A DNA stretch of 37,823 nucleotides from a virus. The translations under genes and the position numbers were made by a program. The stretch is taken from positions 1 through 37,823 of IMG/VR virus record IMGVR_UViG_3300037076_000314; one strand, given 5' to 3'. Under the pieces are notes generated by a model. It searched no databases. It was not told the origin of the DNA and saw nothing but the letters and a program-made list of their open reading frames with translations. Below, piece by piece: positions 5,037 through 14,841 of this stretch; the first letter of the stretch is position 1; each line of letters opens with the position of its first letter.

Positions 5037-6452
5037 ATGGATTTCTCAGTCATTCAAGCAGACCCCCAAATTCGAGCCCTGGTTCAGGACAACTCGCTCG
5101 TTCGCCAATTCCGCGATCCCCTCATGCCGCGCAACCTGTTCCGCGGCGAGGCGGCGCCCGTGCATCAGCCGGGCAACGCCGGTGACAACTTCGTGTTCAC
5201 GGGAGCCGGCCTCATGTCGCCGAGCCCGAACCCGCGCAACCCGAAGAACGAGCCCGCTCCCAAGGACTACCCCAAGGAGCAGTGGAGCATGCAGCTCCAC
5301 GAATACTACGACCGATGCCCGGACACGCACATGCCGACGTCGATCGTGGCCATCGTCAACCTGCTTAACGAGAACCTCGCGGCTCTCGGCAAGAACGCAG
5401 GCCAGACGCTCGATCGCGCCGTCCGCAACCGTCTGTACAACGCCGGCCTGAGCGGACAGACCGTGGCGACCGCCAACGCTTCGAGCACCACCGTGGCGCT
5501 CGCCCGCCTGAACGGCTTCACGACTTCGCGTCGTCCCGACCTGTCCACCGGCAGCCCGGTGCAGTTCCAGACGGTCAGCAGCAACAACCCGCTCGTGATC
5601 CACTACCTGCACAGTGGCACCGTCTACACCACGACGGTGACGGGCTACACGCCCACGTTCTCGGGTGACGAAGTTGGCCCGGGCACGATCACCACGGCCG
5701 ATGCCGTTACGATCACCGCTCGCGATCCCGTGTGGACCGACGATTCCAGCTACATCGTTCGCTCCGGCGGCGGCACCAGCATCGACGCTCTCACGAGCAC
5801 CTCGACGAACGCGTTCACGTACGACCTCTATCGCCAGGCGATCGGTCGTCTCGAGGACATGAGCGTCCCGAAGTTCGCGGACGGGTACTACCACGTGCAC
5901 ATGAACAGCTACTCGAAAGCGCAGCTGTTCACGAGCGCCGAGCAGCGCCAGCTCCTCACCTCCCTTCCGGACCATTACTGGTTCAAGAAGTTCACGCTGG
6001 GCGAAGTGCTCGGCGGCATCATCTTCAACGACGTCCAGTGCCCGCGGAAGAACACCGTCATCGGTGGCGCCACGAACACGTACGTCGGCGGCGAGGGTGG
6101 CGAAATGTTCGGTGGCGAGACCATCAGCTCCGGCTCGGGCACCCTGGAAGTGCAGCGCCCGATCTTCGTCGGCGCCGAGGCGGTATTCGAGTACTACAAC
6201 GACCTCAGCGGTCTCACGACCGAGGCGGGCGTGTGTGGTGTCGTCGGCGAGTTCCAGCCGGCGCAGCTCACCAACAACGGCGTCGAGATCAACGTGGACC
6301 GCGTGCAGGTCTACATCCGGGCGCCCGTGAACGTGAAGGGCGACATCGTGACGAGCATCTGGCGGTCCATCATGGACTGGCCGACACGCACCGATGCGAC
6401 GACCGGTGACAGCGCGCGGTTCAAGCGGTCCGTTGTTGTCGAGCACGTCTAA
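5037..6452 (+). CDS. Major capsid protein
   Basis: ATG at 5037 with AGAGG at 5026-5030. The 471-aa length suits an HK97-fold capsid subunit. The N-terminal arm (MDFSVIQADPQIRALVQDNS) is followed by a long helix region (HMPTSIVAIVNLLNENLAAL at about 98-117), a beta-rich insertion at 185-260, and a C-terminal part typical of capsid proteins (RQAIGRLEDMSVPKFADGYY; VQVYIRAPVNVKGDIVTSIW). The pattern resembles the N4-gp56-like capsid group, but that subfamily is a guess. Codon use is strongly biased to G/C third positions, as expected for the most expressed gene. It lies directly after the putative scaffold and just before the hairpin-rich gap at 6453-6982. Confidence 0.85.
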   Translation: MDFSVIQADPQIRALVQDNSLVRQFRDPLMPRNLFRGEAAPVHQPGNAGDNFVFTGAGLMSPSPNPRNPKNEPAPKDYPKEQWSMQLHEYYDRCPDTHMPTSIVAIVNLLNENLAALGKNAGQTLDRAVRNRLYNAGLSGQTVATANASSTTVALARLNGFTTSRRPDLSTGSPVQFQTVSSNNPLVIHYLHSGTVYTTTVTGYTPTFSGDEVGPGTITTADAVTITARDPVWTDDSSYIVRSGGGTSIDALTSTSTNAFTYDLYRQAIGRLEDMSVPKFADGYYHVHMNSYSKAQLFTSAEQRQLLTSLPDHYWFKKFTLGEVLGGIIFNDVQCPRKNTVIGGATNTYVGGEGGEMFGGETISSGSGTLEVQRPIFVGAEAVFEYYNDLSGLTTEAGVCGVVGEFQPAQLTNNGVEINVDRVQVYIRAPVNVKGDIVTSIWRSIMDWPTRTDATTGDSARFKRSVVVEHV

Positions 6453-6484
6453 CCGCGCGCCTCAACATCATGAACAAATCGCGG

Positions 6485-6524
6485 GACAGCCGTCACACGA
6501 CCGAGAAGAGCTCGGGCGGCTGTC
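6485..6524 (+). terminator. Nested hairpin just after the major capsid gene (terminator-like or RNA 5' domain)
   Basis: An 8-bp perfect stem, GACAGCCG (6485-6492) and CGGCTGTC (6517-6524), encloses a second stem, CCGAG (6501-6505) and CTCGG (6511-6515), with loop AAGAG. It lies 32 bases after the capsid stop. No uninterrupted T-run follows (TTGCGTCCAAGTTTT), so it may be a weak terminator, a processing site or the first domain of the structured RNA described at 6485-6920. Confidence 0.5.
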
Positions 6525-6920
6525 TTGCGTCCAAGTTTTCCCCTCGTGGGAAATTGCCCTTCGGGGCATTCAATGGGCCTGGGCTTGTCTATGACAGCCG
6601 TAAACACAGACGTTCGTGTCGTTGTGTTCTGGCCCGCCTGCTCTGTGGTTGCACTTCGGTGCTTGCCCATACGAAAGAGCAGGTTCGCCGCACGCGCCTG
6701 ATGGTCGCTGATACGTGTTGCGCCTGCTTGGTCAGTGGGTCTCCACGCCAGCTTTTAGATGGCGAGTTTGGACTGGCTTCGGCCTTGTCCAGATTGTTGT
6801 GTGGCATTCGAACGCTTGCGCGTTCATTTGACGGCTCGGATGTTAATCGTCCGTTGGTGACTTAGGTCATGACGTCCAATTCTCGCCTTACCAGTCCCCA
6901 TCGTCGTGGGTTAAACGACG
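6485..6920 (+). ncRNA. Candidate large structured RNA in the capsid transcript
   Basis: This 436-base stretch lies in a 530-base gap between the capsid gene and the gene at 6983. It holds a chain of local stems. Beyond the nested hairpin at 6485-6524 they are: 6537-6542/6548-6553; 6555-6559/6564-6568 (UUCG loop); 6575-6579/6631-6635, enclosing 6582-6589/6593-6599 and 6603-6612/6617-6628 (UUCG loop); 6637-6644/6676-6683, enclosing 6651-6654/6659-6662 (UUCG loop); 6746-6750/6760-6764; 6769-6777/6782-6791 (UUCG loop); 6810-6815/6820-6825; and 6902-6907/6915-6920. Most are perfect and 5-8 bp long. The region is visibly less GC-rich than its neighbours. The one open frame (6470-6865) is Cys/Arg/Ser-rich, with no ribosome binding site. 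I infer a large structured non-coding RNA or a structured 3' region of the capsid mRNA. No known RNA family is recognised. Confidence 0.6.
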
Positions 6921-6982
6921 TATCTGGCAGCGCTGGAGTTGAACGTCCCGCCATCTTTTTGACCGACGAAAGGTAGGCTCTG

Positions 6983-7405
6983 ATGAGCGTCCTCAGCGAC
7001 AGAACAACCAAACAGCAAGAGAAGGCATCCGCGGCCAAGCCGGAGGTCACGACGATCGACTTGCCGGCGTTCACGGAGGCTTCGGTGGAAGAGGGGGGCG
7101 TGGCTTCGGTCGACGACCTCAAGGTCACGCCCGAGCAGTTCGCGGCCGAGAAGGCTGCGGCTGCCGCCAAGATGGCAAAGGCAAAGAAGCCTGCGGATCC
7201 TCCGGTGCCAGCGAAGAAGGAGACTGTCCCGGCGGTCAAGGCCGATGTCGCTCTCCGTGTTCGCGTGAAGCAGGACGCCGAGTTCTTAATGGGCACGGCG
7301 GTGTGCCGCTTCAAGGCCGGGCAGATCCTGAGCGCGAACCACTACATGCCTAACGCGTTCCGCGAGATCCTCTCGCAAGTCCACACGGAGCCCGTCACCG
7401 AGTAG
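6983..7405 (+). CDS. Phage protein, hypothetical (head-tail region)
   Basis: ATG at 6983 lies after a weak AAAGGTAGG. The 140-aa product has a flexible Ala/Lys/Pro-rich N-terminal two-thirds (AAEKAAAAAKMAKAKKPADP near 52-71) and a compact C-terminal domain from about residue 87 (VALRVRVKQDAEFLMGTAVC, then FKAGQILSANHYMPNAFREI). The domain is short and beta-rich. It is the first gene after the structured gap and opens the head-tail connector block. The role is unknown. A small head-associated or connector accessory protein is plausible by position. Confidence 0.6.
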   Translation: MSVLSDRTTKQQEKASAAKPEVTTIDLPAFTEASVEEGGVASVDDLKVTPEQFAAEKAAAAAKMAKAKKPADPPVPAKKETVPAVKADVALRVRVKQDAEFLMGTAVCRFKAGQILSANHYMPNAFREILSQVHTEPVTE

Positions 7406-12850: not shown

Positions 12851-13008
12851 AAGGCAAGCTCCTCGACGCACTTTGGGACGATGTAGCCTACTGTTGCAGA
12901 TACGGACACCAGCCACTCTCTGAAGTTTTCAGCCTGTCGCGCTTCGAAGTGACCGACTTCAAGGAAGCCCTTAGCAGGCTGGTTGAAGCGGAAAACAAAC
13001 AGAAGTGA
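12817..13008 (+). CDS. Tail assembly chaperone, -1 frameshift extension (T-type domain)
   Basis: This -1 frame segment has no start of its own. It is read after slippage at 12811-12817 and adds 63 residues, giving a fusion of 188 aa from 12443. The added part (EGKLLDALWDDVAYCCRYGH, then PLSEVFSLSRFEVTDFKEAL) is helical. Its spaced Trp-Asp-Asp, Pro and Phe pattern is typical of second-frame tail assembly chaperones. In known systems the long form binds both the tape measure and tube subunits. The fusion ends 4 bases before the tape measure start at 13012. Confidence 0.75.
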   Translation, partial: RQCEGAPSRSVEGKLLDALWDDVAYCCRYGHQPLSEVFSLSRFEVTDFKEALSRLVEAENKQK

Positions 13009-13011
13009 TCG

Positions 13012-14841
13012 ATGACTGAGAACACGACCCAAGTGGAAGGCCTGGACTTCACAGTCCAGGACCACACAAGCGCGCCGACCGAGAAGATGACTCGGTCGGT
13101 GGAGCATTTCCACAGCGCGGTCGAGCGGACGACGGCGAAGCTAGAGAACCTCGGCCACCACACGGCCATGACCGCGCTCGGCGCCGTCGGGCTTGGGATT
13201 GGCTTCCACGCCCTCGCCGAGAAAGCGAGGGACGCGAACACCGAGCTCGAGCAGGCGGCTAAGCGCATCGCGGGCGTGCAGTACACGTTCGGAGGCTGGG
13301 AGAAGGGCATCAGCGGCCAGCAGAAGTGGAACGAGGCCCTCGAGCAGGGACAGGAGATCGTAGAGAGGCTGGAGTCGTCCGAAGGCAAGCTCAAGATGGG
13401 GCGCGACGCTCTGGCCGACATCTACAAATCGACCACGGCTATCAGCGCTCGATACGGTCTGTCCCAGGAGCGACAGCTCGACTACACCGAGAAGCTGGCA
13501 GCGGCCCAGAAGGTTCTCGGGACCAGCGCCGAGGGCGCGTCCATGGTCATCGGCCGGGCCGCGCTCACCGGGAAGATTCGCGGCTTCGACGACTTCAGCA
13601 AGACGCTGCGGTTTGCCGTCGGCGATCTGAAGGCATTCTCAAAGCTGGGCGAGGAGAAGCGCTTCGAGAAGCTGCAGAAGGCGATGGGCGACCTCATGCC
13701 AGCGGCCGAGGGCATGGGAAAGGGGCTTTCCGGATCCCTGTTCGACATCCGTGAAAGCGTCAACCAGCTGACTCGCGACATCAGCGGACCGGTGTTCAAA
13801 GAGGTTACCAAGGAGATCGGCGGCTGGGCCGCGCACCTGAAAGAGGTGCAGGCGAGCGGCCAGAGTCTGGCGCACAACTACGGCGAGAAGCTCGTCACGG
13901 CCTTCGGCTACCTGAAAGACACCACGGCGTTCATCGCCGACCACTGGAAGTCGATCGCGCTGATCTTTGGCGCGAGCAAGCTCGTCGGCATGACCGAGGG
14001 GCTGGCAGCGTGGGGAAAGAAGGGCGGCGCCGCTGGAATAGCTGGAGCGGCGTCGGGCGCGGCCGGGGCCGTCGGCACCATGCAGGTCCGCGCCGGCATT
14101 GTGAATATCGACTCGAGCGGTGCCGCTGGTCTCGGGAAACCGGCGGCCGAGGCGCTGACGACGTCTCTGCGGCCGAGCATGGCCGAGACGGTCGGCAGGT
14201 TTGCCAGCGTGGCCGGCAAGGCTTTGATGGTCACCGAGGCGCTCGGGGCGCTGTATATCGGCGCGGAGGGGCTCGCCAGGTTGCTCGACGCTCAGCAGTC
14301 CAAGCAGCTCGAAACCCAGCGTGCCGCTCCCCGTGCCATGGACGCCCTCACGGCGGGCGCCAAGGCTATGAGCTCGGCACTGAACGAGCGATCGGTGAAG
14401 GAAACCTTTGGCCATCTCAAGAGCGCATTCGACGCCTATGGCCTGAAGGTAGGTCATGGTCAAATGTCGGCCTCGGCAATCGCTGCCGAGCTCAGGAGCA
14501 TGGCGCCAGAGACGGCCGCCAAGCAGCTGGGGATGTTCGGCCTCAAGGGTGTCAGCGCGAAGAGCGTGCAGGGCGCCGGCTTCATCGACGAGGCCGCCGG
14601 CAGGGTGGCGTCGCTTCTGAACGGATTTGCCGACCAGCTGCTCAAGACGTATCCCGACCTGGCAAAGTCCGGATCCGCCATCTCGCGCAAGGCGGACATC
14701 AACCAGACCATCCAGCACCTCGAGATCCACCCGGACTTCAAGGACGCTAACCCCGATCGCGTCTGGCACCAGCTCACCAACGAGGTCATGGACATCGCCC
14801 ACAACCCACGCGGCTCACTCATTCCCGCGGTGGTGCGGTAG
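13012..14841 (+). CDS. Tape measure protein
   Basis: ATG 13012 follows the chaperone extension after 3 bases. The 609-aa product is Ala/Gly/Lys-rich and mostly helical, with an N-terminal coiled coil (EKMTRSVEHFHSAVERTTAK at about 25-44), long amphipathic helices to about 310, hydrophobic stretches at 313-325 (HWKSIALIFGASKL) and a Gly/Ala-rich segment at 340-360 (KGGAAGIAGAASGAAGAVGT). These are typical tape measure features. The gene sets tail length. At 609 residues it predicts a fairly short tail for a myovirus. The next gene starts at GTG 14841, overlapping the TAG. Confidence 0.8.
   Translation: MTENTTQVEGLDFTVQDHTSAPTEKMTRSVEHFHSAVERTTAKLENLGHHTAMTALGAVGLGIGFHALAEKARDANTELEQAAKRIAGVQYTFGGWEKGISGQQKWNEALEQGQEIVERLESSEGKLKMGRDALADIYKSTTAISARYGLSQERQLDYTEKLAAAQKVLGTSAEGASMVIGRAALTGKIRGFDDFSKTLRFAVGDLKAFSKLGEEKRFEKLQKAMGDLMPAAEGMGKGLSGSLFDIRESVNQLTRDISGPVFKEVTKEIGGWAAHLKEVQASGQSLAHNYGEKLVTAFGYLKDTTAFIADHWKSIALIFGASKLVGMTEGLAAWGKKGGAAGIAGAASGAAGAVGTMQVRAGIVNIDSSGAAGLGKPAAEALTTSLRPSMAETVGRFASVAGKALMVTEALGALYIGAEGLARLLDAQQSKQLETQRAAPRAMDALTAGAKAMSSALNERSVKETFGHLKSAFDAYGLKVGHGQMSASAIAAELRSMAPETAAKQLGMFGLKGVSAKSVQGAGFIDEAAGRVASLLNGFADQLLKTYPDLAKSGSAISRKADINQTIQHLEIHPDFKDANPDRVWHQLTNEVMDIAHNPRGSLIPAVVR

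Follow-up and report, generated by a model that had tools for sequence, protein, structure and literature searches.

What occupies the 530 nucleotides (positions 6453-6982) that separate a capsid gene from the next gene in the genome of a tailed phage? The sequence record under study is that of a virus of 37.8 kb; all 37,823 nt were analysed and are called the window below. An earlier note on this DNA had described a long non-coding gap downstream of the capsid gene, which the ORF positions confirm (Table 1), and had suggested that it might hold a new large RNA class. Judged from sequence, and as far as our searches reach, the locus appears to carry a large structured RNA of a class not yet described, which occurs in uncultured tailed phages. 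That this RNA is real, conserved, structured and without a known family we hold with a probability of about 0.97. The evidence for its fold and for its link to the capsid gene is strong, that for its function indirect.

By tblastn, the upstream gene has its best annotated relative in the major capsid protein (MCP) of Kromp, a Streptomyces phage (28% over 97%), and there is a weak match to PHROG 1357, major head protein (E 2.5e-4). The product of the downstream gene has no match in Pfam or PHROGs. Its label as a neck gene rests on position, because Kromp is annotated with head-to-tail connectors shortly after the MCP (directly after it comes a hypothetical protein); the position thus fits the label, and the protein families give no confirmation. 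Tape-measure-like and baseplate J-like proteins are encoded further downstream. As had been claimed, the gap is less GC-rich than its neighbours (0.57 vs. 0.61-0.66 in nearby bins), and it shows a strong T excess. ARAGORN finds no tRNA in the window, and scans of 6200-7100 return neither a promoter-like site nor an intrinsic terminator, that is, a short GC-rich hairpin with an immediate U-run.

The region folds better than shuffled sequence, a check that had been named beforehand: 6479-6957 reaches -204.6 kcal/mol and its dinucleotide shuffles -176.6 +/- 6.2, which gives a z of -4.54. When the window was scanned in 235 windows, 6721-6960 had the lowest plus-strand z of all (-5.33) and the scan window at 6401 the third-lowest. 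The second-lowest value (-4.95) belongs to 12961-13200, at the start of the tape-measure-like gene, where 12851-13220 folds with a z of -3.4. Four reported UUCG-capped hairpins proved to have their loops exactly at 6560, 6613, 6655 and 6778, three of the four being C(UUCG)G. An RNA from the minus strand would also fold well (z -5.2). We nevertheless chose the plus strand and ruled out the other, because G-U cells greatly outnumber A-C cells among the non-Watson-Crick positions (142 vs. 25, read as plus strand) and because C(UUCG)G loops are confined to the plus strand, with none on the minus strand of the region.

A search with the MCP protein recovered contigs that carry the same gap sequence at 70-100% identity. 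In 14 close members, a model of 22 helices and 137 pairs forms standard pairs in 94.4% of cells, compared with 38-43% when the partners are slid, a control generous to the model because the structure was derived from the same, sequence-based alignment on which it is scored. Compensatory double changes are seen in 71 of the 137 pairs, and double-changed cells number 205 in the alignment against 57 in shuffles; kinship among the members inflates double changes in the shuffles, and the excess is still very large. Both homologues downstream of related capsid genes and strong covariation, which had been proposed beforehand as checks, are therefore present. The closing helix of the 3' domain, for example, shows a C-G/U-A exchange in six of 14 members. 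P1 was left out of the pair count because it misaligns; its arms, picked by eye, are complementary in 12/12 close members despite differing sequences. The multi-branch domains predicted from the single sequence reappear in the comparative structure, which adds a pseudoknot and long-range helices. The AAACCC/GGAACC hairpin, carried by most relatives, is lost or replaced in the window. In the window (6946-6960) and in relatives (L009, for example, with CCACCUCUUUUC), the sequence of the 3' tail is similar to the anti-Shine-Dalgarno end of 16S rRNA and might pair with the ribosome-binding site downstream.

Table 1. The capsid-linked RNA, its parts and its neighbours (positions in the window)
Feature	Position	Strand	Remarks
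Major capsid protein (MCP) gene	5037-6452	+	directly upstream of the RNA; tblastn to Kromp MCP; weak PHROG 1357
Open frame across the RNA, 131 aa, ATG start	6470-6865	+	no protein-level conservation; few stops in relatives
Large structured RNA, ~480 nt	6480-6960	+	limits inferred from where the conserved helices lie; structure shared by 14 close homologues
P1, long hairpin just past the MCP stop	arms 6480-6492 / 6517-6529	+	ACACGA-type conserved internal loop, inner hairpin
UUCG-capped hairpin	6554-6569	+	helix 1 of the comparative model, 97.6% paired
Three-way domain, stem 6575-6581/6629-6635 around two hairpins	6575-6635	+	helices 2-4, 96-100% paired
Long bulged hairpin, CUUCGG loop 6654-6659	6636-6684	+	helices 5-7
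Multi-branch domain, GCCGCAC 6687-6693 / GUGUGGC 6799-6805, two inner arms	6687-6805	+	helices 8-12
Short hairpin at the usual AAACCC/GGAACC hairpin site	6810-6826	+	alignment columns 353-402
3' domain, long-range closing helix 6830-6834 / 6948-6952	6830-6952	+	helix 16
Two hairpins within the 3' domain	6837-6853 and 6857-6870	+	helices 17-18
13-bp outer stem around the pseudoknot	6871-6947	+	helix 19, double changes at 8 of its pairs
H-type pseudoknot: CCC 6897-6899 with GGG 6908-6910; 6902-6907 with 6915-6920	6897-6920	+	helices 21-22
U-tract immediately 3' of the closing helix	6956-6960	+	3' T-runs common in relatives
Next gene, putative head-completion/neck gene by position	6983-7405	+	orthologues at the same place in relatives

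Behind distant MCPs (44-50% identical), gaps of similar length have the motifs alone in common: the pseudoknot about 60 nt before the next gene and the AAACCC/GGAACC hairpin recur. The hairpin can also serve as the only query. We searched 2.9 million viral contigs with the pattern GCAAACCCTDGB-N(1-14)-CYATGGAACCGC, which fixes the loops together with some of the inner stem and leaves the outer stems unconstrained beyond GC/GC. It returned 32 hits, 31 just downstream of this MCP family and one cut off by the end of its contig; homologues found by MCP and those found by RNA motif alone sit at one and the same site. In the clear cases (23 of the 36 parsed), the outer stems of the motif hairpin are complementary with differing sequences. 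The pseudoknot in its strict form, CCC-stem-GGG-stem', occurs within the last 160 nt in 28 of 43 lineages, where shuffles predict 1.1, and mostly lies 50-90 nt before the next gene (median about 60 nt). By eye, the CCC/GGG stem is apparently replaced by CUG/CAG or CCG/CGG in a freshwater group (L171, L184, L185, L187). R1, a covariance model of the 3' domain built from close members only, detects distant members that it had not been given, at the position where they should lie (L035, E 5.6e-5; L099, 8.9e-5; L037, 7.4e-4) and has no match in the 12 relatives that lack the RNA. The gap of L176, 224 nt long, holds a hairpin and a pseudoknot, which look like a minimal core.

Between the MCP gene and the next gene, the RNA is present in 45 of 57 aligned phage lineages and absent from 12 (L040, L163, L166, L168, L174, L180, L183, L198, L199, L205, L207 and L210), in which the gap measures roughly 80-150 nt; these labels were set from gap length, helped by motifs. 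On the MCP tree, presence and absence change four times, compared with 11 for shuffled labels. The MCP of L040, without the RNA, is 70% identical to that of L035, which has it. Because 12 MCP relatives, including L040, do without the RNA, it is not essential to this capsid. HNH-type ORFs lie between MCP and RNA in three lineages; Pfam (HNH) confirms that of L125, and those of L103 and L160 were judged by CxxC/H motifs. Blastn against cultured phages gives no credible match. Among the cultured MCP relatives, Kromp has 58 nt after its capsid gene and phiKX1 no gap. A pattern scan of bacterial genomes returned no copy of the capsid protein, and about 1,190 bacterial genomes sampled from three phyla gave one distant match. 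Four of 40 stretches from a pattern search of genome contigs gave blastn matches of 22-31 bases, which we took as chance.

With Rfam 15 at gathering thresholds, neither the window nor 15 related loci match any family, and seven more scans over relatives, with E as high as 1 allowed, stay empty as well; a permissive mgtE match on the minus strand of the window (10.7 bits, E 2.4) is chance-level. The Rfam models of GOLLD, ROOL, group I and group II introns and HEARO likewise do not match. The view that this is not a known phage RNA, for which the Rfam comparison had been named beforehand, thus stands. Our searches of open-access papers brought up no account of a large RNA next to a capsid gene.

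The open frame across the RNA was rejected as a protein gene, as it shows no amino-acid conservation, with the MCP as positive control. Substitutions spread evenly over its codon positions, and single-change codons are synonymous in about 0.2-0.45 of cases, compared with 0.29-0.33 under neutral expectation and 0.62-0.82 in the MCP. A coding frame with low dN/dS, named beforehand as evidence against a new RNA, is therefore not seen, and the proposal of a new large RNA class is supported by the Rfam negative, the fold z, the homologues, the covariation and these non-coding substitutions. By new we mean an RNA family distinct in sequence, fold and context; in a looser sense, large phage RNAs without an assigned role already exist.

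The gap is nevertheless poor in stops in one frame. This frame begins 16-29 nt past the MCP stop and contains four stops in 11 close members against 20.3 +/- 3.6 by column permutation, a depletion that is overstated because permutation breaks kinship and the start is that of each member's longest frame; frame +1, too, has fewer stops than expected (47 vs. 56). In distant members, the combined open-frame excess is weak; it is seen on the plus strand (Fisher p 0.001), not on the minus strand (p 0.27), in no fixed frame. In L020 and L026, the end of the stop-poor frame overlaps the next gene as ATGA. The scarcity of stops hints that ribosomes may enter the RNA region; one possible reason for it is that ribosomes traverse the region so that Rho spares the downstream genes.

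What might such an RNA do? Under a relaxed rule, a terminator-like hairpin follows the MCP gene in 10 of 12 RNA-less lineages vs. 9 of 43 RNA-bearing ones (Fisher p 1.4e-4, indicative only because the strict rule was run first and then relaxed, and because lineages are not independent); the stricter rule gives 5/12 vs. 2/44. Within its last 75 nt, the RNA has a run of at least four T in 28 of 43 lineages, where 5.2 are expected. The exchange of hairpins, together with the 3' U-tract, suggests that the RNA occupies the site that a terminator would otherwise have. We hypothesize that the RNA would be copied with the capsid gene late in infection and would make up the 3' part of that transcript. 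Its 3' end would then arise at the U-tract behind the closing helix, which would do the job of the simple terminator in RNA-less relatives. The folded RNA might accumulate and act by its specific shape on a protein or RNA partner in virion production. We give even odds to this best explanation as a whole, i.e. an undescribed ornate RNA class that forms the 3' end of the capsid transcript and acts by its shape. The part that concerns the transcript 3' end, taken by itself, is tentative and in our estimate somewhat below even.

Several points weigh against this 3'-end mechanism. Firstly, a 480-nt fold with invariant loops far exceeds the need, as a short hairpin suffices in RNA-less relatives. 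Secondly, the U-tract is not universal, since 15 of 43 lineages lack a run of four. Further, the helix before the U-tract closes a domain of about 115 nt, unlike an ordinary terminator, and the scan of 6200-7100 found no terminator. L036 and L187, both RNA-bearing, carry a strong terminator-like hairpin between MCP and RNA, so that the RNA may be made separately there. The possible entry of ribosomes, hinted at by the stop-poor frame, points in the same direction.

A role in mRNA stability, which the earlier note had also considered, or at the 3' end is compatible with the data. In its purest form, the RNA would be a cis-acting mRNA element without any trans role, which would shield the capsid mRNA at its 3' end and, by lessening read-through into the next genes, might set the MCP-to-neck ratio. 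The fixed position, the near-constant distance of the pseudoknot from the start of the next gene (median about 60 nt) and the exchange with terminator-like hairpins all argue for it, yet the conserved fold and invariant loops are bigger than such a role requires; we regard it as a plausible minority reading. A trans-acting ornate RNA like GOLLD or ROOL is somewhat unlikely. It would be a discrete molecule, perhaps an RNA-only multimer, derived from the late transcript or from its own promoter, and its role would have nothing to do with control of neighbour genes. Its size, its multi-branch build, the pseudoknot and the invariant motifs in internal loops are of the type known from ornate phage RNAs (PMC12286853), and the hairpins upstream of the RNA in L036 and L187 would suit separate production. 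However, the place beside the MCP gene is constant down to about 45% MCP identity, which is needless for a purely trans-acting RNA, and GOLLD and ROOL lie near tRNA islands, whereas this locus has no tRNA and no promoter-like site.

That a large ornate RNA is made with the capsid protein and is directly active in virion production, for instance as an RNA-only assembly or, alternatively, as an RNA-protein complex with shell or scaffold, seems to us distinctly unlikely. An RNA of the packaging motor like that of phi29, or one packed in or bound by the capsid, has its location next to the MCP gene as the one point in its favour; the 12 relatives of the same MCP family without the RNA and the lack of an Rfam match to phi29-type packaging RNA make it very improbable. 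A protein-coding gene is scarcely credible, as the low stop count and the ATGA overlaps that favour it are set against even substitution of codon positions, a neutral synonymous share, conserved RNA blocks that shift frame between members, a frame that differs between distant members and no Pfam or PHROG match for the gap frame.

Taken together, the RNA keeps to a single gene, that of the capsid protein, even between deeply diverged phages. To our knowledge, the phage RNA classes on record with such size and complexity are few and have no assigned role. Because natural RNA-less relatives exist, presence and absence are directly comparable here, and the role of ornate phage RNAs becomes more testable.

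The pRNA of phi29 is a phage RNA linked to the virion head; the capsid-linked RNA is much larger, has a different fold and is dispensable in close MCP relatives. With HNH-associated RNAs (HEARO/omega RNA) and phage introns it shares the HNH-type ORF between MCP and RNA in three lineages. Unlike them, most of its members have no ORF, and the RNA is inherited with the MCP. The large phage RNA ROOL has pseudoknots and an intricate secondary structure (PMC12286853). Such a complex fold is found here as well (22 helices, H-type pseudoknot), which is a general likeness and not the ROOL fold; unlike ROOL, the capsid-linked RNA has no tRNA nearby and no Rfam match. GOLLD, a large phage RNA that rises during lysis, forms nanocages and lies near tRNA islands, as does ROOL (PMC12286853). 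The capsid-linked RNA is likewise large, multi-branched and phage-borne, but GOLLD often exceeds 800 nt and keeps to the vicinity of tRNA islands, whereas the RNA described here is half as long and tied to the capsid gene.
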